21,597 nucleotides of DNA, taken from positions 1-21,597 of the IMG/VR virus record IMGVR_UViG_3300025128_000401. One strand, written 5' to 3'. The notes below the pieces were generated by a model. The model did not search any database. It saw only the letters and a program-made list of their open reading frames with translations, and was not told where the DNA came from. The translations under genes were made by a program, and so were the position numbers. Shown here in pieces: positions 8,290 to 15,985 of the stretch. The DNA is from a virus. How positions within the stretch are numbered: position 1 is the first letter of the stretch; each line of letters begins with the position of its first letter.

Positions 8290-8446
8290 AGAAAAAAGCC
8301 TCCGTCTCCGCTTCGTCTTTTAAATCTTGTTGATATGTCGTGTTTAACTTTTGCACAATACTATCTACATCTCTAACAAAAGATTGTTGCACTTGTTGAT
8401 CATAATCTTCTAAAGGTTGTGTTAATGCTTGAACTATTTTTGCCAT
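8282..8446 (-). CDS. Small conserved phage protein (54 aa)
   Basis: This short ORF starts with ATG at 8446-8444 and stops with TAA at 8284-8282. It begins MAKIVQALTQPLEDYDQQ, continues helical and acidic (SFVRDVDSIVQKLN, then TTYQQDLKDEAE), and ends AFFFG. It fills exactly the gap between the stabilisation gene, whose TAA it overlaps as TAATG, and the TTG-started gene downstream, which it overlaps by 8 bases. Such exact packing strongly supports a real gene. I recall similar 50-60 aa proteins with a C-terminal Phe-Phe-Gly-type ending next to stabilisation genes in marine phages, without a known function. It is predicted to be a single long amphipathic helix, possibly a tail or neck accessory. 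Confidence 0.82.
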   Translation of the reverse strand: MAKIVQALTQPLEDYDQQVQQSFVRDVDSIVQKLNTTYQQDLKDEAETEAFFFG

Positions 8447-10593
8447 TATCTTCTACCATCTGGTTGATAGTCTATTCTAAAAGTTCCAACTTTCCAAAAT
8501 TGACTCGTGCTGGTGTTATCTATTTTTAAAGATATTTGTCTAGATCTTGCACGTGTATCTATTTTTTGTGTGCTACTATTTATAGTAAACGGACCTAATG
8601 TAGAACTAGCTTGAGAGTCGTTTGGAAAATCTCTTAAATTTAATGTAACTCTTGCATCGCCTGTTTGTGCAAGAAAATCTGGTAATACTCTTCTTATTTT
8701 CATCATAAATTCACCATCACCTGCTAAACCTTGTTGACCAATATCAAAATCTCCAGATTCAATTGATGCAGTAATTGCTGTAGTTGCACCTTCTCTTACT
8801 TGATCTAATCCTTTTTCATGTTCATAATAATAACTAACACCATCAGTATTACCTTGAACAAATGTAGAAGAACCAGATGTGCCGTTTGTACTTGTGTCAT
8901 ATTCTGTTGCATGTGGTTTACCAAATACAGCTGAGTCTTGCCACGCAGTTCTTGCTAATGTACCGACAGTCCATACTGGTCGCTCGGGACTTGAGTCTAA
9001 GTAATTATACGCTACCATTCTATTTACCGTTCCAGAACCTTCGTTTGGATAAAACCATATCACTTCACCAAACAAATTATTAAGTCCTGCATTAATGTGT
9101 TGCTTTGGTATTGTATTAATATCATCAAATACATGGTCCTCAACTAAACATGGCAGTGATTCTAGTTTACCAGTATATCTAAAGAAACCATTTTCTGACA
9201 TCCAATACGCTGTACCATCAACTTCAACAGCTGCGTTTTGTCCAATTAATCCACAGTTTGTACCAACTTGTTGAAAAGAAAACGTAAATGGTGGACCAAC
9301 AAAACGCATAATAAATAACGCGGTATCTGTCCAAACATAAATTGCATCACGACCTCTGATTGCTCCTACAATCTTAGATCCATCTGCAAGTCTTTGTGTA
9401 CCAGCAGTATTTGTTGCACTTGGTGTGTATGTGTTAATATCTTCTTGAGAAGAAAATCTTACAAACATAGGATCTTGCGTAGTTGAAGTTCCTATTGTTG
9501 TTTCTGTTCCAAAAAATACTAAGTGTCTATCTGGTGTAGATACTAAACTAAATGCAGAAGCTGTTGGTGCGCCTGATATAATTGTTGCTCTAGTAGATGT
9601 TGCATCTGTAGGATTTGAATTCCACTCAAATGACTCTCCACCGTTTATGGTTGCAATTAATTTATTACCAAAATTATCTAATGACCATAAACCCGGTGCT
9701 GTTACAATATCTCCAGATGCTGCAGCGTTCCACGCAAAAAAGTTTGATGCATCAGTAACAGTTGCACCAGAGCTATGTGTTGCAGCTGTTGTACCATTAG
9801 CACCCCTAGTTAAACCAGTTAAAGTTCCACCACTATTTCCTGTATATGTAATTAGTTCTGTTCCTATTTGAACTGTTCCAGATGATCCGAAAGAACTAGA
9901 ACTTGCCATTGTTAATGATGTTACACTTGCGTTAATTCCTGATGATAGTGTTGATGTAAACTGTCCTTGGGCCTGACCACCCCATGATCCAAGACCCCAA
10001 CCAGTAGATGCAGTTTCTACAGCGGGTCCTACAGGATAATAGTGTCTAACTCTTATACCGCCAGATGTAGTTGCACCTGATCCAGATTCATTAGAACCCA
10101 TAGTAATTGTTAATGTAGTATCAGTTGGAACTGATGTAACCATAAATTTTACATCATTAAAATCACCAGATGCAAAATTAGAATTTGTAATAGATGAAAA
10201 GTTATCTAATAAAATAATATCACCTTTTCCTATATTGTGTGCAGAAGAAAAAGTTAGTGTTACAGCTGCAGATCCGTTTGTTGTAGAAAATGCACTTGTT
10301 AAAGTTGTTGTAGTTTTGATTGGATGTACATCATAAAAGATACCACCAGAATATGCATATAAAATACTACTAGTCCCTAACGCTGCGTACTTAATACCAG
10401 ATGTATTTACAAAATGATGAATAGCTGTATTACGACCTGTCATTTCAACAGATCCCAATTGTGCCCAACCACCTATTTTTTCAGGTGATCCGTATCTAAA
10501 CCTAACATTATCACCATTAACCCATTGACCTTCACCACCTGTAGCAGTGACTTGTTTATTAAACCCTGGTGCAAATTTTAATTTTTGTAACAT
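8446..10593 (-). CDS. P22 gp10-like packaged-DNA stabilisation protein with beta inserts (715 aa)
   Basis: This protein probably forms part of the tail hub that seals packaged DNA below the portal, as gp10 does in phage P22. The N-terminus (LKFAPGFNKQVTATGGEGQW, then VNGDNVRFRYGSPEKIGGW, residues 6-43) is the hallmark opening of the Phage_stabilise family. Later beta-propeller-like strands fit too (DRHLVFFGTE, AIYVWTDTALFIMRF, MSENGFFRYTG). P22 gp10 is about 470 aa; this protein is longer by about 240. Two extra beta-rich segments lie at about 95-170 (AHNIGKGDIILLDNF) and about 215-281 (VQIGTELITYTG, LTRGANGTTAATHSSGA). The C-terminus ends in a beta region (MKIRRVLPDF; WKVGTFRIDYQPDG). The ATG follows AAGGA and sits directly after a strong hairpin. 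Confidence 0.88.
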   Translation of the reverse strand: MLQKLKFAPGFNKQVTATGGEGQWVNGDNVRFRYGSPEKIGGWAQLGSVEMTGRNTAIHHFVNTSGIKYAALGTSSILYAYSGGIFYDVHPIKTTTTLTSAFSTTNGSAAVTLTFSSAHNIGKGDIILLDNFSSITNSNFASGDFNDVKFMVTSVPTDTTLTITMGSNESGSGATTSGGIRVRHYYPVGPAVETASTGWGLGSWGGQAQGQFTSTLSSGINASVTSLTMASSSSFGSSGTVQIGTELITYTGNSGGTLTGLTRGANGTTAATHSSGATVTDASNFFAWNAAASGDIVTAPGLWSLDNFGNKLIATINGGESFEWNSNPTDATSTRATIISGAPTASAFSLVSTPDRHLVFFGTETTIGTSTTQDPMFVRFSSQEDINTYTPSATNTAGTQRLADGSKIVGAIRGRDAIYVWTDTALFIMRFVGPPFTFSFQQVGTNCGLIGQNAAVEVDGTAYWMSENGFFRYTGKLESLPCLVEDHVFDDINTIPKQHINAGLNNLFGEVIWFYPNEGSGTVNRMVAYNYLDSSPERPVWTVGTLARTAWQDSAVFGKPHATEYDTSTNGTSGSSTFVQGNTDGVSYYYEHEKGLDQVREGATTAITASIESGDFDIGQQGLAGDGEFMMKIRRVLPDFLAQTGDARVTLNLRDFPNDSQASSTLGPFTINSSTQKIDTRARSRQISLKIDNTSTSQFWKVGTFRIDYQPDGRR

Positions 10594-10603
10594 ACAAAAT
10601 CCT

Positions 10604-10653
10604 TAATAATTAGGCAGGAGATGGTGTGGTGGAGATCTCCCGCCAAATTATTA
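10604..10653 (-). promoter_or_regulatory. Strong 19-bp-stem hairpin next to the ribosome-binding site
   Basis: Arms 10604-10622 and 10635-10653 are inverted copies over 19 positions with one mismatch and one G-T pair, around a 12-base loop (10623-10634, CTCCACCACACC on the minus strand). The 3' foot of the stem touches the AAGGA preceding the ATG at 10593, so the structure could control translation of the stabilisation gene, protect a processed 3' end, or be an RNase III-type cutting site. No U-run follows, which argues against a simple intrinsic terminator. A TATAAT (10655-10650) overlaps the outer 5' arm, but no good -35 was found, so a promoter call is weak. Confidence 0.7.
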
Positions 10654-10662
10654 TATACAACA

Positions 10663-11310
10663 TTATTCAGGTACTTTAAAGCCTTTATACCAAGCAGGCA
10701 ACCCTAAAAAAGGTCTTGTATCATATTGATTTTGTTTAGCTGTCTTTGAATTCATTTTATTATAATGTAAAAATACTTGTCCACAATCTTTACCTTTAAA
10801 TTCTTCTCTCCAATGTTCTAAATCACAACCAGAATAAATCAACATATCACCTGGTTCTAAATCTATTTTAATACCAGCTTGATTTGTTTTACCTGTTGGA
10901 TCTAAATATATTGGCCATGGATCTCCTCCTAAATTCAATGTGGTGGATATTTCACAAGAATATCTATCTTTGTGTCTAGCTAATACATCACCTTTTTTAT
11001 AAATTCTAGCGTAAGAATATGTCTCAGATAGTTTTAATCCTGTGTGTTTTTCCATAACAGGTTTTACTTGTTCTAATAAAGTTTCCATTACTATATCACT
11101 ATAGTGTGAATATGTATTAGGAACTTGTTCATCATTCCATACACCAAAATATTCTGTAAATGGTGATATAAATTTTTTATCAAATAAAAATCTTGCGACT
11201 TCTCTTTTGTTTAAAAAATATTTAAAACAGAAATCTGCTATTTCTTTTGATACGGCAGATTTTAAAATACTATATTTATTTTTTTGGAACGCCGATTTTT
11301 TTAATAACAT
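10663..11310 (-). CDS. Fe(II)/2-oxoglutarate-dependent oxygenase (215 aa)
   Basis: The protein has the double-stranded beta-helix signature of a 2OG oxygenase. The iron ligands are H113-x-D115 in ARHKDRYSCE and H166 in LEPGDMLIYSGCDLEHWRE. R168 is a candidate for binding the 2OG carboxylate, and CGQVFLHYN (176-184) closes the core. Residues 1-90 form a helical N-terminal part. Enzymes of this class couple 2OG decarboxylation to hydroxylation of a protein, nucleic-acid or small-molecule substrate; the substrate is not readable here. The ATG at 11310 lies inside the preceding 51-aa ORF and has a good AAAGGA four bases upstream. The gene is the last of three oxygenases and is followed by the long hairpin at 10604-10653. 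AT-content is high compared with the glycine-rich genes. Confidence 0.85.
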   Translation of the reverse strand: MLLKKSAFQKNKYSILKSAVSKEIADFCFKYFLNKREVARFLFDKKFISPFTEYFGVWNDEQVPNTYSHYSDIVMETLLEQVKPVMEKHTGLKLSETYSYARIYKKGDVLARHKDRYSCEISTTLNLGGDPWPIYLDPTGKTNQAGIKIDLEPGDMLIYSGCDLEHWREEFKGKDCGQVFLHYNKMNSKTAKQNQYDTRPFLGLPAWYKGFKVPE

Positions 11311-11431
11311 TTTTTCCTTTCAGTTGCATTTTAGATTTTATAAAATTATCTATAAAGTTAGGTTTATTTTTTACAGAACCATTTTCTAAAATGGTTTTTA
11401 TTACAGCTTTTTTCATGTCTTTATTTTGCAT
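11276..11431 (-). CDS. Small basic protein nested between two oxygenases (51 aa)
   Basis: The ATG at 11431-11429 overlaps the 3' end of the 224-aa oxygenase gene by 11 bases, and the TAA at 11278-11276 lies 35 bases inside the next oxygenase gene. The product begins MQNKDMKKAVIKTILENGS and ends KGKNVIKKIGVPKK. It is very Lys-rich and predicted helical with no Cys. A second in-frame ATG at 11416 (MKKAV) is possible. It covers exactly the 110-base space between two secure genes, and its 3' part carries the Shine-Dalgarno of the next gene, both of which support translation. Function is unknown. It could be a nucleic-acid-binding or adaptor peptide, or a short coupling ORF, and AT-rich DNA makes chance ORFs of this size possible. 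Confidence 0.6.
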   Translation of the reverse strand: MQNKDMKKAVIKTILENGSVKNKPNFIDNFIKSKMQLKGKNVIKKIGVPKK

Positions 11432-12095
11432 TTAAAACATCATTAGGTATTGCTTGACAGTTCCAATGTATAAATCTAAATGGTTCATATCCCATGTCAA
11501 CAGAATATTGATGAGGCATGTATGATGGAAAAAACATCATTCTTCCTGGTTTAATTTGATAATTAATTTTTGAAGATGCGTGTGTTATTTTAGATTTATC
11601 TTTTTCTGGTAAAAGATTCATAACATTACCAGGTCTTGGATCTTCAAATAATGGCATAGAAGTAGCCTCACTTGCTTTTAAAAAATAAAATCCAGATATA
11701 TGTCCGTTCCAGTGTGTATGTAATGTATGGTGTCCTCCACCTTTCTTAGCAAATTCCTGCACCCACATTTCTGTTACAAATAAAGAATAATTTGTTAAAT
11801 CAAAACCCATTTCACCTAATAAATTATATGAGGTAGCCCCTATATAATTTTGTAAATTTTTAAATTTTGGATCACCTATTAATGTTGTTGAATGAAATAC
11901 ATGACCCATATCTTCTTTATTTCCAAATTTTTTATTTCTACTATCTATTGCTTCTTTTAAATTTTTCTTCGATGCTTCAATATAAGAATCTGATGCTTTA
12001 TTTAATTTATTTACAAACTTAGGTTGGTCTGCCCACCATATAGGACATTTAAAATATTCCTCTAAATTTAATTTTTTTGGAAAAGTCATGCTCAT
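11421..12095 (-). CDS. Putative Fe(II)/2OG oxygenase of the 2OG-FeII_Oxy_5 type (224 aa)
   Basis: The central HTLHTHWNGHISGFYFLK (123-140) and the later PGRMMFFPSYMPHQYSV (183-199) match the pattern I know for the 'putative 2OG-Fe(II) oxygenase' family found in cyanophages and pelagic phages: a His-x-His site, then strand, then a late His. Likely iron ligands are in H126/H128 plus H195, with R207 (FRFIHWN) as the 2OG-binding residue. Residues 1-60 are helical and Lys-rich. It differs in sequence from both oxygenases beside it, so the trio does not look like tandem duplication. The ATG overlaps the upstream TGA (ATGA). A second ATG two codons later is possible. The substrate is unknown. Confidence 0.82.
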   Translation of the reverse strand: MSMTFPKKLNLEEYFKCPIWWADQPKFVNKLNKASDSYIEASKKNLKEAIDSRNKKFGNKEDMGHVFHSTTLIGDPKFKNLQNYIGATSYNLLGEMGFDLTNYSLFVTEMWVQEFAKKGGGHHTLHTHWNGHISGFYFLKASEATSMPLFEDPRPGNVMNLLPEKDKSKITHASSKINYQIKPGRMMFFPSYMPHQYSVDMGYEPFRFIHWNCQAIPNDVLNAK

Positions 12096-12721
12096 TTATA
12101 TGGCCATCCCAGATTCCAAATTACCAAACTATGCCTTGAACCTTTTTTAACTGGACATACTCTGTGCCAAACAAAACCAGGAAATACAACTAAAGATCCT
12201 TTTGGTAATATTTCTTTACACTTATATATATTTGGTTTTTTATCTGGATCATTATTTCTAAGATCAAATTCTAATTCACCACCTGTATATTCTTTTGGAT
12301 CTGACAATGTAACCGTTACAGATAATTTTCTAATTTTACCATGATCTGGAGCATTACGGTTTTCTCTCATGTAAGGTTTATCCCAACCATCACAATGCCA
12401 ATCATAAAATTGTCCTTTTTCATATTTTGTAAATTGACATGCTTCAGACCAACTCCATTCAAAATTCCAACCTGCGTTTACGTTTGCTAAATTAATATAT
12501 GGTTGTATTTCTTTATAAATCCATCTGTCATCCATCCAAACAACATTAGAATCTCTTTTCTTTTTTAAGTCTTTAACTTCTGTTTGATTTAATTTTTTGT
12601 TACCATATCCTCCAGTAACTGCCATTTGATCTTGTAGTGATTTTCCATATCGTACAATGTCATCACAAATACGTTCAGGTATTACACTTTGAAAATACCA
12701 ATAATAATTTGTTAAATTCAT
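12092..12721 (-). CDS. Prolyl-4-hydroxylase-like Fe(II)/2OG oxygenase (209 aa)
   Basis: The catalytic motif is complete. Residues FYDWHCDGW hold H109-x-D111; VVFPGFVWHRVCPVKKGSRH holds H186 and, ten residues on, R196, the usual spacing for iron and 2OG ligands in prolyl-4-hydroxylase/PKHD-type enzymes. TGGELEFD (146-153) is the typical strand before the distal motif, and the chain ends SLVIWNLGWPYK. These enzymes hydroxylate protein side chains or small molecules. Length fits a single-domain enzyme without targeting sequences, so it should be cytoplasmic in the infected cell. The gene follows the 587-aa glycine-rich gene after 39 bases that contain an AT-rich palindrome. Its Shine-Dalgarno is weak (AAAGAAAG). 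Protein (tail fibre) hydroxylation is a possible role inferred from position. Confidence 0.9.
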   Translation of the reverse strand: MNLTNYYWYFQSVIPERICDDIVRYGKSLQDQMAVTGGYGNKKLNQTEVKDLKKKRDSNVVWMDDRWIYKEIQPYINLANVNAGWNFEWSWSEACQFTKYEKGQFYDWHCDGWDKPYMRENRNAPDHGKIRKLSVTVTLSDPKEYTGGELEFDLRNNDPDKKPNIYKCKEILPKGSLVVFPGFVWHRVCPVKKGSRHSLVIWNLGWPYK

Positions 12722-12738
12722 ATTCTTTCTTTTACCAC

Positions 12739-12765
12739 CATAAAAACAATATATCTATTTTTATG
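12739..12765 (-). promoter_or_regulatory. AT-rich 8-bp perfect palindrome at the end of the glycine-rich gene
   Basis: Arms CATAAAAA and TTTTTATG (12765-12758 and 12746-12739 on the minus strand) flank an 11-base loop and include the TAA stop of the 587-aa gene. The stem has few G-C pairs and the T-run is inside the 3' arm. This could be a leaky terminator or an mRNA-end structure, or chance in AT-rich DNA. With the hairpin at 10604-10653 it brackets the oxygenase block. Confidence 0.35.
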
Positions 12766-14524
12766 AAACTGTCAATGTCCCAGAAACTGTAAATGTTGCA
12801 ACTTTACATCCACCTGGAGTAGTTGAAGTTTGATTAGTTCCAGGTGAAACACTAAATGTAGCGTCACTAGGTCCTCTAACTATTACTATACCAGATCCAC
12901 CAGCTCCGCCAGCTCTTGATGTGCTTGTGTTTGGCCCTCCAACTGAACCTCCACCACCTCCAGTGTTAGCTGTTCCAGCAGTTGCATTAGCATCAACGGC
13001 TCCTGCACCACCTCCTCCTGCTCCACCAGAACCAGCAGGTTTACTTGTATAACCTCCACCACCACCGCCACCAGCGTATGTTGTAGCTGATCCATTAATA
13101 TCGTTAGGTGCACCTGCTCCACCATTTCCTGCTCCACCTGGACCACCACTTCCTCCGACTGCGGTTGCTCCACCACCGCCACCTCCAGCGTTAGATGAAC
13201 CAGGTCCACCATTATTCCCTTGTGGTGGACTAACAGGAGGAGTATTACCACTACCTATAGGAGCAAAACTTGGACTTCCGCCTCCCGATCCACCATTTCC
13301 TCCCCCAGGTGATGCTCCACCAGAATTTCCTCCGTGGCCTCCACCTGTTGAAGTGATTGTGCTAAATACTGAGTTGCTTCCTTGAACACCTTGTCTTGTC
13401 GGACTACCAGACGGGCCTGGGCCACTAGGGCCTGCAGCTCCACCAGCTCCAATTGTAATTGGAAAATCTTGTGATCCAAAAGAACTAAAAGGTATTGCTG
13501 ATCCTCTTAATGGGGATGGGCCATAACCAGAAGCTCTGTATCCTCCAGCTCCAGCTCCTCCACCACCACCAACATCTTCTTGACCTTTACTACCACCGCC
13601 ACCACCACCAGCTACTACTAAATAATCTATATTATAAGCAGTTAAAGGTTTAGGCCATGTTCCAGATTTTCTTGCTGCAAATTGACTTTTTAAATTCCAT
13701 ACACCACTTGCTTTGTTTAATTCTTTTATTACTACTATTCCTGATCCACCATTACCACCACCTGATCTAGTTCCACTAATTCCACAATCTCCAGCGCCAC
13801 CTCCACCTCCACCTCCAGTGTTTGTTGATGCATTGCTTCCGGGATTTGCAGTTCCTGCTCCTCCAGCTCCTCCGCCACCAGGGCCTCCAGCTCCTGCACC
13901 AGATCCTGATGATGCTTCCCAACCAGCTCCACCTCCACCTCCACCATAGGTAGTACAATTTACTGATACTGATAAACCATTACCACCAGCACCGCCAACT
14001 GCATTACTTGGAGAGTTTCCACCTGCAGCTCCAGCTCCACCACCTCCGCCAGAACCTCTATCAGATGGATTTCCACCAGCATTAGATTGAGGAGCACCTG
14101 AAGCACCACTTGTTCTAACTCTAGCAGATGGGCCAGGAGCATCATTTATATGCGTAGGTGCACCTGTAGCTGTTAAACAAAGACCTGTTGAATTAGATCC
14201 TGCTGCTGCAAAAGCAGCTGGCCCAGTTCCTGGACTTGTTGGGTGAGTACCGCCAGCTCCTCCAGCTCCTACTGTAAATGGATAAGGTGAATTGCCACAA
14301 ACTAATACTTCTTGACAAACTATACCTCCGCCACCGCCACCTCCGCCAGCATTAGAGACATTTCCAGCATTACCACCAGATCCACCAGCAACAATAGCTA
14401 CATTTACAACTCTTGTTCCAGGATTTGTGGTAAGTGACGAACTAGATGTTTTACTAGTAACTTCATCTTCACCAAAAGATGCTCTATTTACTCTGCCAAT
14501 AATTCCGCCATTAGTTCTAGGCAT
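12761..14524 (-). CDS. Glycine-rich tail protein, two modules (587 aa)
   Basis: This is an extremely Gly-rich protein with two related modules. Module 1 (about 39-268) opens with VVNVAIVAGGSGG and closes with GGSGIVVIKE. Module 2 (about 298-550) opens with NIDYLVVAGGGGGG and closes with GGSGIVIVRG. The linker GVWNLKSQF...KSGTW (274-290) separates them. The N-terminus NGGIIGRV (5-12) matches NGGIIGPV of the 308-aa protein. Module 2 shares YRASGYGPSPLRGSAIP and GNTPPVSPPQGN with that protein. The C-terminus (KVATFTVSGTLTVS) resembles the 'TTFNSSGTFTA' lead-in of a further module. Cysteines are scattered (70, 76, 116, 190, 247, 573). Known Gly-rich phage adhesins, such as gp38 of S16-like phages, form polyglycine-II helix bundles at fibre tips, so a receptor-binding role is plausible but inferred. 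The start follows AGGAGA. Confidence 0.88.
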   Translation of the reverse strand: MPRTNGGIIGRVNRASFGEDEVTSKTSSSSLTTNPGTRVVNVAIVAGGSGGNAGNVSNAGGGGGGGGIVCQEVLVCGNSPYPFTVGAGGAGGTHPTSPGTGPAAFAAAGSNSTGLCLTATGAPTHINDAPGPSARVRTSGASGAPQSNAGGNPSDRGSGGGGGAGAAGGNSPSNAVGGAGGNGLSVSVNCTTYGGGGGGAGWEASSGSGAGAGGPGGGGAGGAGTANPGSNASTNTGGGGGGGAGDCGISGTRSGGGNGGSGIVVIKELNKASGVWNLKSQFAARKSGTWPKPLTAYNIDYLVVAGGGGGGSKGQEDVGGGGGAGAGGYRASGYGPSPLRGSAIPFSSFGSQDFPITIGAGGAAGPSGPGPSGSPTRQGVQGSNSVFSTITSTGGGHGGNSGGASPGGGNGGSGGGSPSFAPIGSGNTPPVSPPQGNNGGPGSSNAGGGGGGATAVGGSGGPGGAGNGGAGAPNDINGSATTYAGGGGGGGYTSKPAGSGGAGGGGAGAVDANATAGTANTGGGGGSVGGPNTSTSRAGGAGGSGIVIVRGPSDATFSVSPGTNQTSTTPGGCKVATFTVSGTLTVS

Positions 14525-14536
14525 TAGTTAAGTCTC

Positions 14537-15016
14537 CTATGCGGACACCCAAGCTGTGCCGTTCCAATCGTATACTGTTGGTGTTTCCGCGGTGTCGTTT
14601 GATTTAGTTGCTTCCCAACCTCTTGTGTTGTTGGCGTTATATTTTGTTTCGTTCCATGAAATTATGTATGTAAAACCTGATCCATCCTCTACTGATGGAA
14701 ATGTTACTGGTGCTTGCCAATCGTCACTGCTATCTAGTGTCCAGGATGCAAAAGGTTGTGGTACAATAAATTTGTTTTTAGATGCGTCATATCTATAACC
14801 AATACCTGCATATTGTTTTCTAAAATTATGATTGTAAGATGTTTGTTTCCATGTTCCACCACCAAAAAAATTTACACACCATGTTTCACCATCAACATGT
14901 TCATTAGAAGGTACGTGTGCATTATCTACTACAACGACTCTTTTTACAATTTGATGAGTATCAGATGTAAATCCTGTTGGGTCTGTTTTTGATTCTAGTT
15001 CTGCAAAATGTGCCAT
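14537..15016 (-). CDS. Conserved marine-phage virion-associated protein (159 aa)
   Basis: I recognise this family from T4-like cyanophages and other marine phages. The core ETWCVNFFGGGTWKQTSYNH runs on to NFRKQYAGIGYRYD and FIVPQPFASWTLD (residues about 44-95), preceded by VVVVDNAHV and a MAHFAEL start. It contains many aromatic residues and conserved Trp/Tyr, and looks like a compact beta protein. Its function is not established; homologues are usually near tail-fibre or structural genes. Here it lies between the two glycine-rich proteins, 12 bases before the second, suggesting assembly or presentation of the tail-tip structure. The start has a clear AAGGAG seven to eight bases upstream. The C-terminus (YDWNGTAWVSA) is short and tail-like. 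Confidence 0.88.
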   Translation of the reverse strand: MAHFAELESKTDPTGFTSDTHQIVKRVVVVDNAHVPSNEHVDGETWCVNFFGGGTWKQTSYNHNFRKQYAGIGYRYDASKNKFIVPQPFASWTLDSSDDWQAPVTFPSVEDGSGFTYIISWNETKYNANNTRGWEATKSNDTAETPTVYDWNGTAWVSA

Positions 15017-15058: not shown

Positions 15059-15985
15059 TTAAAATCCAGTCCACTCTCCACTTTTACGAAGATCGTATAC
15101 TTCATTTAATGTCCAAAATCCAGGTGCAGTGCTTGGATTAACAACTTCAGGTTCTTTAATAATTACCACTCCTGAACCTCCAGCACCACCTATAAAATTT
15201 CCTGTACCTGGCAATCTTCCAGCACCACCTCCACCGCCACCAGTATTAGATGTTCCAGCACCACCGCCACCACCTTTTGCTCCATTTCCACCTCCACCTG
15301 CGCCACCAGAACCAGCTGAACCAGGAACAGCTGGAAAATTTCTTGCTCCACCGCCGCCACCACCAGCGTAAGTTACATCTGAACCTGTAATTGTATTTGG
15401 AGCACCTGCCCCTCCTGTTACACATGAACCGGTAGCAGTGGCACCACCACCTCCAGCTCCACGTTCTTGAGGCACTGACTGAGCACCACTATTTCCTTGA
15501 GGAGGACTAACTGGAGGAGTATTTCCTGCTCCAACACCCGATTGTCCTTGTCCTGATCCACCACCAGAACCTCCTGCTACTCCAGCGCCAGCACCACCGC
15601 CTCCACCACCTCCAGCTGATGTAATACAAAAAGCAGATGAATTACTACCTGATACCCCATCACCTGCGTTTTCTGGATCACCATTGTGACCAGCACCTCC
15701 ACCACCTACTACTATTGGATAAGTTGAACATGCAGTGACTGGTACAGCACTTCCTCTAAGTGGACTTGGTCCAAAACCTGTTGCACGATAACCTCCTGCA
15801 CCTGCACCTCCAGCTCCATTACTATTAGCACCACCTCCACCGCCACCAGCGACTATTAAATAATCAACATTCGCTGTTACTGCTGCAGTAAAAGTTCCTG
15901 ATGAATTAAATGTAGTTACTTTTGCAGCTGTAGTTGATCCTTCTTGTACTGTTTGAACTGGTCCTATAATTCCGCCATTTGCCAT
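15059..15985 (-). CDS. Glycine-rich tail protein, one module (308 aa)
   Basis: The layout is NGGIIGPV (3-10), a lead-in VTTFNSSGTFTA (23-34), NVDYLIVAGGGGGG (39-52), then YRATGFGPSPLRGSAVP (66-82), a long Gly/Ala/Ser-rich body with cysteines at 86, 120 and 188, the conserved GNTPPVSPPQGN (154-165), and a module end GGSGVVIIKE (269-278). A C-terminal cap WTLNEVYDLRKSGEW (291-305) parallels the internal linker of the 587-aa protein. It is therefore a single-module relative of that protein. The start has a strong AGGAGG. Families with the 'DYLVVAGGGGGG' opening occur in many phage tail regions. A tip or adhesin role is inferred from composition and position after the repeat fibre. Pro-rich open frames on the opposite strand here are shadows of the Gly codons. 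Confidence 0.88.
   Translation of the reverse strand: MANGGIIGPVQTVQEGSTTAAKVTTFNSSGTFTAAVTANVDYLIVAGGGGGGANSNGAGGAGAGGYRATGFGPSPLRGSAVPVTACSTYPIVVGGGGAGHNGDPENAGDGVSGSNSSAFCITSAGGGGGGGAGAGVAGGSGGGSGQGQSGVGAGNTPPVSPPQGNSGAQSVPQERGAGGGGATATGSCVTGGAGAPNTITGSDVTYAGGGGGGARNFPAVPGSAGSGGAGGGGNGAKGGGGGAGTSNTGGGGGGAGRLPGTGNFIGGAGGSGVVIIKEPEVVNPSTAPGFWTLNEVYDLRKSGEWTGF

Follow-up and report, generated by a model that had tools for sequence, protein, structure and literature searches.

The stretch of DNA analyzed here (the window) comprises positions 1–21,597 of the 21.6-kb virus record IMGVR_UViG_3300025128_000401. It carries a block of genes for proteins of 209, 224 and 215 aa, which the original prediction described as three 2-oxoglutarate (2OG) oxygenases placed between the tail-tip genes and the stabilization gene. 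The phage is HTVC033P-like, and its three enzymes are 82–84% identical to their counterparts in Pelagibacter phage HTVC033P; Pelagibacter is an abundant ocean bacterium. The coding strand is mainly minus, and transcription runs from a 941-aa fiber-like protein through a 119-aa protein, a 308-aa Gly-rich protein, a 159-aa protein and a 587-aa Gly-rich protein to the 209-aa, 224-aa, 51-aa and 215-aa genes, followed by a hairpin and the gene for a 715-aa stabilization-type protein. The predicted location is thus correct, with the PF21722 Gly-rich gene on one side of the block and the phrog_3287 gene on the other (Table 1). Neighboring genes of the block lie on the same strand and overlap in an operon-like manner. 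The 51-aa open reading frame (ORF) had been taken as nested; in fact it shares 11 nt with the 224-aa gene and 35 nt with the 215-aa gene. It appears to be coding, judging from 47 distinct homologs in which the synonymous fraction of single-change codons is 0.45 versus 0.18 expected. The low GC content noticed earlier was borne out (0.28–0.31 in the three genes versus 0.367 overall), but third-position GC (0.13–0.16) is similar to that of the rest of the window, hence the low GC reflects amino-acid composition and a foreign-DNA reading is ruled out. The three products are indeed no duplicates of each other: BLASTP of the 224-aa against the 209-aa protein gives an E-value of 0.12, and profile-profile comparison of the 215-aa with the 209-aa protein found no homology (probability 0.3%).

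By its sequence, the 209-aa protein represents a canonical 2OG-Fe(II) oxygenase of the PF13640/PKHD-like type: it matches the PF13640 profile with 58.5 bits (cut-off 27), and H109, D111, H186 and R196 are invariant among 257 sequences. It aligns with the catalytic part of PKHD-type hydroxylases (YbiX/PiuC), although its scores are far under the equivalog cut-offs of these enzymes. The 224-aa protein matches PF13759 (53.9 bits, cut-off 27), and all of the ~206 sequences of this family carry H126-x-H128...H195 together with R207, so that the two-His-one-carboxylate motif HxD/E...H is absent from every one of them. It aligns over the core with the TIGR02466/PF13759 proteins (PDB 3bvc and 2rg4, solved structures of a family of unknown function), with which it shares the HxH pattern, but its score is slightly under the TIGR02466 cut-off (60.9 vs 62.5 bits). 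Complete iron-binding motifs had been ascribed to all three proteins; this holds only for the 209-aa protein (HxD...H plus Arg). The 224-aa protein has no HxD/E, and the 215-aa protein has HxD...H with a Gln at position 178.

Members of the phrog_2954 family, to which the 215-aa protein belongs, are annotated as "ferrochelatase". Neither this protein nor seven of its relatives gave any match in Pfam or NCBIfam, including the ferrochelatase family PF00762, and a PDB sequence search with the 215-aa profile returned nothing relevant. An AlphaFold2 model, built from 45 environmental sequences, reached a mean confidence (predicted local distance difference test, pLDDT) of 95.6, and its Foldseek search yielded 676 PDB matches at E≤0.001, the best of them prolyl 4-hydroxylases and other 2OG enzymes. 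The top matches (4iw3, 4j25) are the Pseudomonas putida prolyl 4-hydroxylase, at an identity of 11–14%, i.e. a likeness at the level of the fold only. The 50 best PDB matches listed for the fold are all beta-helix oxygenases, and none is a ferrochelatase. Neither the modeled fold nor the profile searches thus support a ferrochelatase function, and according to the model the 215-aa "ferrochelatase" is an oxygenase-fold protein that is commonly mislabeled.

The metal-binding motif H113-x-D115...H166 is invariant in the 215-aa family. In 2OG oxygenases the 2OG carboxylate is usually bound by Arg or Lys. At the corresponding place, with equivalence deduced from motif spacing, the 215-aa family has an invariant Gln (Q178, 287 sequences covering the site); no Arg or Lys was found at the usual place in the family, though another residue might serve. 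The window's protein thus resembles the P. putida prolyl 4-hydroxylase in fold but differs from bacterial prolyl 4-hydroxylases in lacking the 2OG-binding Arg/Lys. Because Gln replaces this residue, 2OG binding by the 215-aa member may take another form, or its role may have changed; the 224-aa protein, given its three-His pattern, may likewise have a different chemistry. Naturally fused genes at three loci (L276:343–1662, L279:3949–5142 and L328:7989–9350) encode a 215-like domain followed by a 209-like 2OG oxygenase domain at the C terminus. The fused protein of L276 has matches to phrog_2954, phrog_61 and, within its 215-like part, to phrog_2297, one member of which exceeds the PF13640 threshold; in this way the "ferrochelatase" group is bridged by sequence to the 2OG oxygenases.

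The same comparisons drew attention to phage genes named "DNA endonuclease" (phrog_2297) that score over the PF13640 threshold, and to phrog_274, named "DNA endonuclease V", which is tied to them by weak profile matches. Such genes are located at L209:9618–10142 (in S-SM1), L209:10145–10633, L204:9522–10004 and L211:8663–9175. From their profile matches, the endonuclease names of phrog_2297 and phrog_274 are likely further misannotations.

The gene order of the block and its co-location with fiber genes across phage types are well established. Own-type environmental loci were collected for their resemblance to the window, so they are its relatives and in part relatives of one another; for more distant loci, other members served as the lead sequence. 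All 171 environmental loci that carry the three genes have them in the order 209>224>215, and a Gly-rich gene lies directly upstream of the 209-aa gene in 142/152 loci; in a second count, 115 of 116 own-type loci had a Gly-rich ORF immediately before the block. This agrees with the expected co-occurrence with Gly-rich proteins, as does the presence of the phrog_2295 Gly-rich family within about 6 kb of the 215-aa gene in seven podo- and myovirus-type records that are isolates or complete (HTVC033P, HTVC023P, 023Pt_psg01, HTVC008M, S-SM1, S-RSM4 and Mosig), while HTVC027P lacks both. The rough combined p-value for this proximity is 8e-4 (six genomes, uncorrected for shared ancestry). S-SM1 and S-RSM4 have the Gly-rich, 159-aa-like and oxygenase series as in the window on a myovirus backbone, and the series also occurs on podovirus backbones. 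Tblastn with Gly-rich queries retrieved few or no phages, probably since low-complexity sequence was masked. In the distant loci the runs of oxygenase-like genes usually keep a 209-like and a 215-like gene, and the 49 with sufficient upstream sequence have a Gly-rich gene (22), a kelch-like repeat gene (17) or neither (10). The association is not limited to Gly-rich fibers: an exclusive link to Gly-rich proteins is ruled out by the kelch-type lineages, and since several lineages have kelch-like fiber genes and no Gly-rich gene, the link is to fiber genes in general.

Among 84,980 prokaryote species genomes the 215-aa family was found at only 29 loci; many of these contigs show the fiber-oxygenase order and are phage-like sequences in bins or single-cell assemblies, the others being unclassifiable. 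Because prokaryote homologs are few and many of them stand in this phage-like order, a widespread host metabolic gene is argued against. Among these loci (L360–L388), where many of the few bacterial-genome members lie on phage-like contigs, several come from one Maricaulis metagenome-assembled genome (IN14). The record behind L308 (G002), an 88-kb contig, has two 215-family genes (12553–13173 and 57621–58244) about 45 kb apart. Inside the oxygenase run of cyanophages we noted a 233-aa protein (L209:12213–12914 in S-SM1, L210:12185–12886 in S-RSM4) of phrog_33749, with ferredoxin-like Cys motifs and weak Fer4 matches. Further modifying enzymes are encoded in or close to the region (L308:5408–6202, L339:11709–13492 and L206:525–1919), namely a sulfotransferase, glycosyltransferase-like ORFs (recognized by eye) and a tryptophan halogenase.

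The Gly-rich proteins encoded upstream are candidate substrates. In a Foldseek search the model of the 308-aa protein resembles the tail tip of Bxb1 (9d93, E-value 1.9e-5) and the fiber of cyanophage Pam3 (7ypx, E-value 4.4e-5), although the identity to either is only 20–23%. Both Gly-rich tail proteins of the window and their relatives share a conserved Pro-rich segment of the GNTPPVSPPQGN type, and PPQG is present in 90 of 144 distinct sequences of the family. The tail-tip/fiber-like model and the Pro-rich segment make hydroxylation of fibers reasonable to propose.

Table 1. Features of the oxygenase block and its surroundings in the window
Feature	Position	Strand	Remarks
715-aa virion structural protein, stabilization type	8446..10593	-	phrog_3287 E 1.6e-104; 3' of the 215-aa gene in 87/104 loci
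Conserved hairpin, CCACCACA loop	10604..10653	-	upstream of the stabilization gene's ribosome-binding site
TATAAT, possible -10 element at hairpin foot	10650..10655	-	positioned TATA motif in 59/67 relatives
215-aa phrog_2954 protein, annotated "ferrochelatase", predicted double-stranded beta-helix fold	10663..11310	-	phrog_2954 E 3e-51; H113, D115, H166, Q178
51-aa lysine-rich small protein, putative gene	11276..11431	-	homolog at 62 loci; excess synonymous change; overlaps both neighbors
224-aa PF13759/phrog_81 protein	11421..12095	-	Pfam E 2.6e-14; phrog_81 E 2.6e-21; PDB 3bvc E 2e-5
209-aa 2OG-Fe(II) oxygenase, PKHD-like	12092..12721	-	PF13640 E 1.4e-15; phrog_61 E 9e-40; PDB PiuC E 1e-6
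AT-only palindrome, not counted as functional	12739..12765	.	8-nt perfect arms
587-aa Gly-rich protein, candidate substrate	12761..14524	-	PF21722 E 2.8e-37; phrog_2295; directly upstream of the 209-aa gene
159-aa phrog_7759 protein, companion of Gly-rich genes	14537..15016	-	S-SM1 and S-RSM4 have it next to the block as well
308-aa Gly-rich protein (PF21722), fiber/tail-tip-like model	15059..15985	-	AlphaFold2 pLDDT 87.9

The palindromes at the two edges of the block had been taken to bracket a cassette. They are unrelated, the arms of the 5' palindrome being unlike those of the hairpin, and this rules out a mobile cassette with matching terminal inverted repeats. Only the 3' edge carries a conserved element. 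For the 5' palindrome, 13% of segments of equal length fold as well; perfect 8-nt arms are rarer (0.6% of 35-nt segments), but the palindrome is poorly conserved, since only 32 of 220 relatives have a perfect 8-nt-arm palindrome at this junction. The hairpin at the 3' edge has a near-constant CCACCAC loop and a covarying stem. Among 72 strong hairpins found 3' of distinct 215-aa genes without use of the loop sequence, 69 have a CACCAC loop (about 0.1% expected for random bases). Pairing was assessed without alignment or a covariance model, by swapping arms between elements, because MAFFT alignments misplace the stems owing to the variable loop length; in 41 distinct stems (a set selected by the loop motif) 99.7% of positions are paired, versus 59.6% with arms from different elements. 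The element was detected once in the genome of HTVC023P, once in the portion retrieved from a 65-kb relative and not at all in HTVC033P.

The TATAAT at the foot of the hairpin is a putative promoter -10 element; the TATA motif is usually found 9–14 nt ahead of the stem core, and in some lineages another promoter-like motif follows downstream. The window's hairpin does not have the form of an intrinsic terminator (a GC-rich stem with a T run behind it), its stem being followed by AATTATTAAGG; in several relatives CTTTTAA follows the stem. Rfam gave no match above threshold in the window, and in six relatives a single sub-threshold match to FuFi-1 (E-value 0.18, in one of the six), which we take as chance. 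The hairpin could possibly belong to the leader made from an internal promoter, terminate transcription or serve as a site of RNA processing.

Altogether, we consider hydroxylation of fiber or other virion proteins by the block to be the best available hypothesis, in which we place roughly even confidence, and the block more likely tailors such proteins than host metabolism. It would represent a fiber-linked set of 2OG-oxygenase-type (double-stranded beta-helix) proteins, probably co-expressed late, as suggested by the common strand and the overlapping genes in a structural operon. The enzymes would most likely hydroxylate or otherwise oxidize residues of newly made virion proteins, the first targets presumably being the products of the immediately preceding fiber/tip genes (Gly-rich in the window, kelch-like in other lineages), and the modification would alter adhesin folding, stability or host recognition; catalytic activity, substrate and effect on infection are what we infer. 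The proposal is consistent with the best matches of the 215-aa fold to protein prolyl hydroxylases and with the match of the 209-aa protein to PKHD-type hydroxylases. Several points weigh against it. The similarity of the 215-aa fold to protein hydroxylases is moderate (template modeling score about 0.5–0.6) and many of its matches act on small molecules; two of the three block proteins (224 and 215 aa) deviate from the canonical motif; the kelch-fiber lineages have no Gly-rich protein, and 10 of the 49 non-own loci have neither fiber type upstream. Furthermore, fiber-adjacent regions are known recombination spots, so that linkage may not mean function.

It is conceivable, if on balance unlikely, that the junction between the fiber and stabilization genes simply tolerates inserts, the oxygenases acting elsewhere in the cell and the linkage reflecting recombination rather than substrate. 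Other enzymes do occur at or near the region, such as a sulfotransferase (PF13469) in L308, a tryptophan halogenase in HTVC008M and glycosyltransferase-annotated genes in HTVC023P and HTVC027P, the latter also having antisense genes at the junction (L205:8295–9956) that include a different 2OG oxygenase, gp73. However, the order and composition of the block are very stable, its pairing with fiber genes recurs on unrelated backbones, and its genes overlap as in an operon. An auxiliary role in host 2OG, nitrogen, iron or heme metabolism during infection has been put forward for these gene groups (PMC3037559, PMC9599517, PMC11561400), but we regard it as improbable given the oxygenase fold predicted for the "ferrochelatase", the lack of a common host homolog and the position amid structural genes. 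Modification of host proteins, for instance translation factors, or of the cell surface appears more improbable still: the best fold match of the 215-aa model (4iw3, 4j25) is a prolyl 4-hydroxylase solved with EF-Tu, yet that likeness is confined to the fold, and the genes stand with virion genes and not with early takeover genes. Least probable, in our opinion, is an AlkB-like chemistry that repairs or modifies DNA or RNA; this has been suggested for cyanophage 2OG oxygenases located beside uvsX/uvsY/uvsW (PMC2984593, PMC9146016), but no repair genes adjoin the block in the window, and the families matched are PKHD/prolyl 4-hydroxylase-like, not AlkB.

Co-location of 2OG oxygenases with "ferrochelatases" in pelagiphages has already been published by Wittmers et al. 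2022 (PMC9599517), whose HTVC023P-type pelagiphages have the same gene groups, with the HTVC023P trio in the same order; these authors take the genes as metabolic and the ferrochelatases as real, whereas we find an oxygenase fold in the model and a block tied to fiber genes. The cyanomyovirus T4-GC 240/412/611/615 group (Sullivan et al. 2010, PMC3037559) likewise has, behind Gly-rich and fiber genes, a single run that contains 209-like (GC412) and 215-like (GC615) genes, but with more oxygenase-like genes, in larger genomes and with no 224-aa ortholog placed between them in the form seen in the window. Proposed roles include nitrogen/2OG balance (PMC3037559) and, for cyanophage 2OG oxygenases, DNA repair (PMC2984593, PMC9146016); phrog_61 and phrog_2954 were reported as enriched in seasonal marine viruses (PMC11561400), and marine-phage 2OG oxygenases as structurally similar to the human prolyl hydroxylase EGLN3 (PMC12774648). 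Among the open-access papers searched we found no report of phage fiber hydroxylation, and no earlier report of the fiber linkage, the ferrochelatase reassignment or the hairpin, although other papers may hold one.

As a broader and tentative proposal, which we think rather doubtful as a whole, marine tailed phages might have in common a module for hydroxylation of their own fiber adhesins. It would include a beta-helix family, mislabeled as ferrochelatase, that can do without the usual 2OG-binding Arg/Lys, and in pelagiphages also the RNA hairpin with the CCACCAC loop, which would border the module on its 3' side and control how the next structural gene is expressed. If phrog_2954 is an oxygenase-fold family and the set serves the fibers, the metabolic readings of these genes (PMC11561400, PMC9599517) need revision. 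If true, the role of many marine-phage 2OG oxygenases, which is an old question, would become testable in cultured pelagiphages by virion proteomics.

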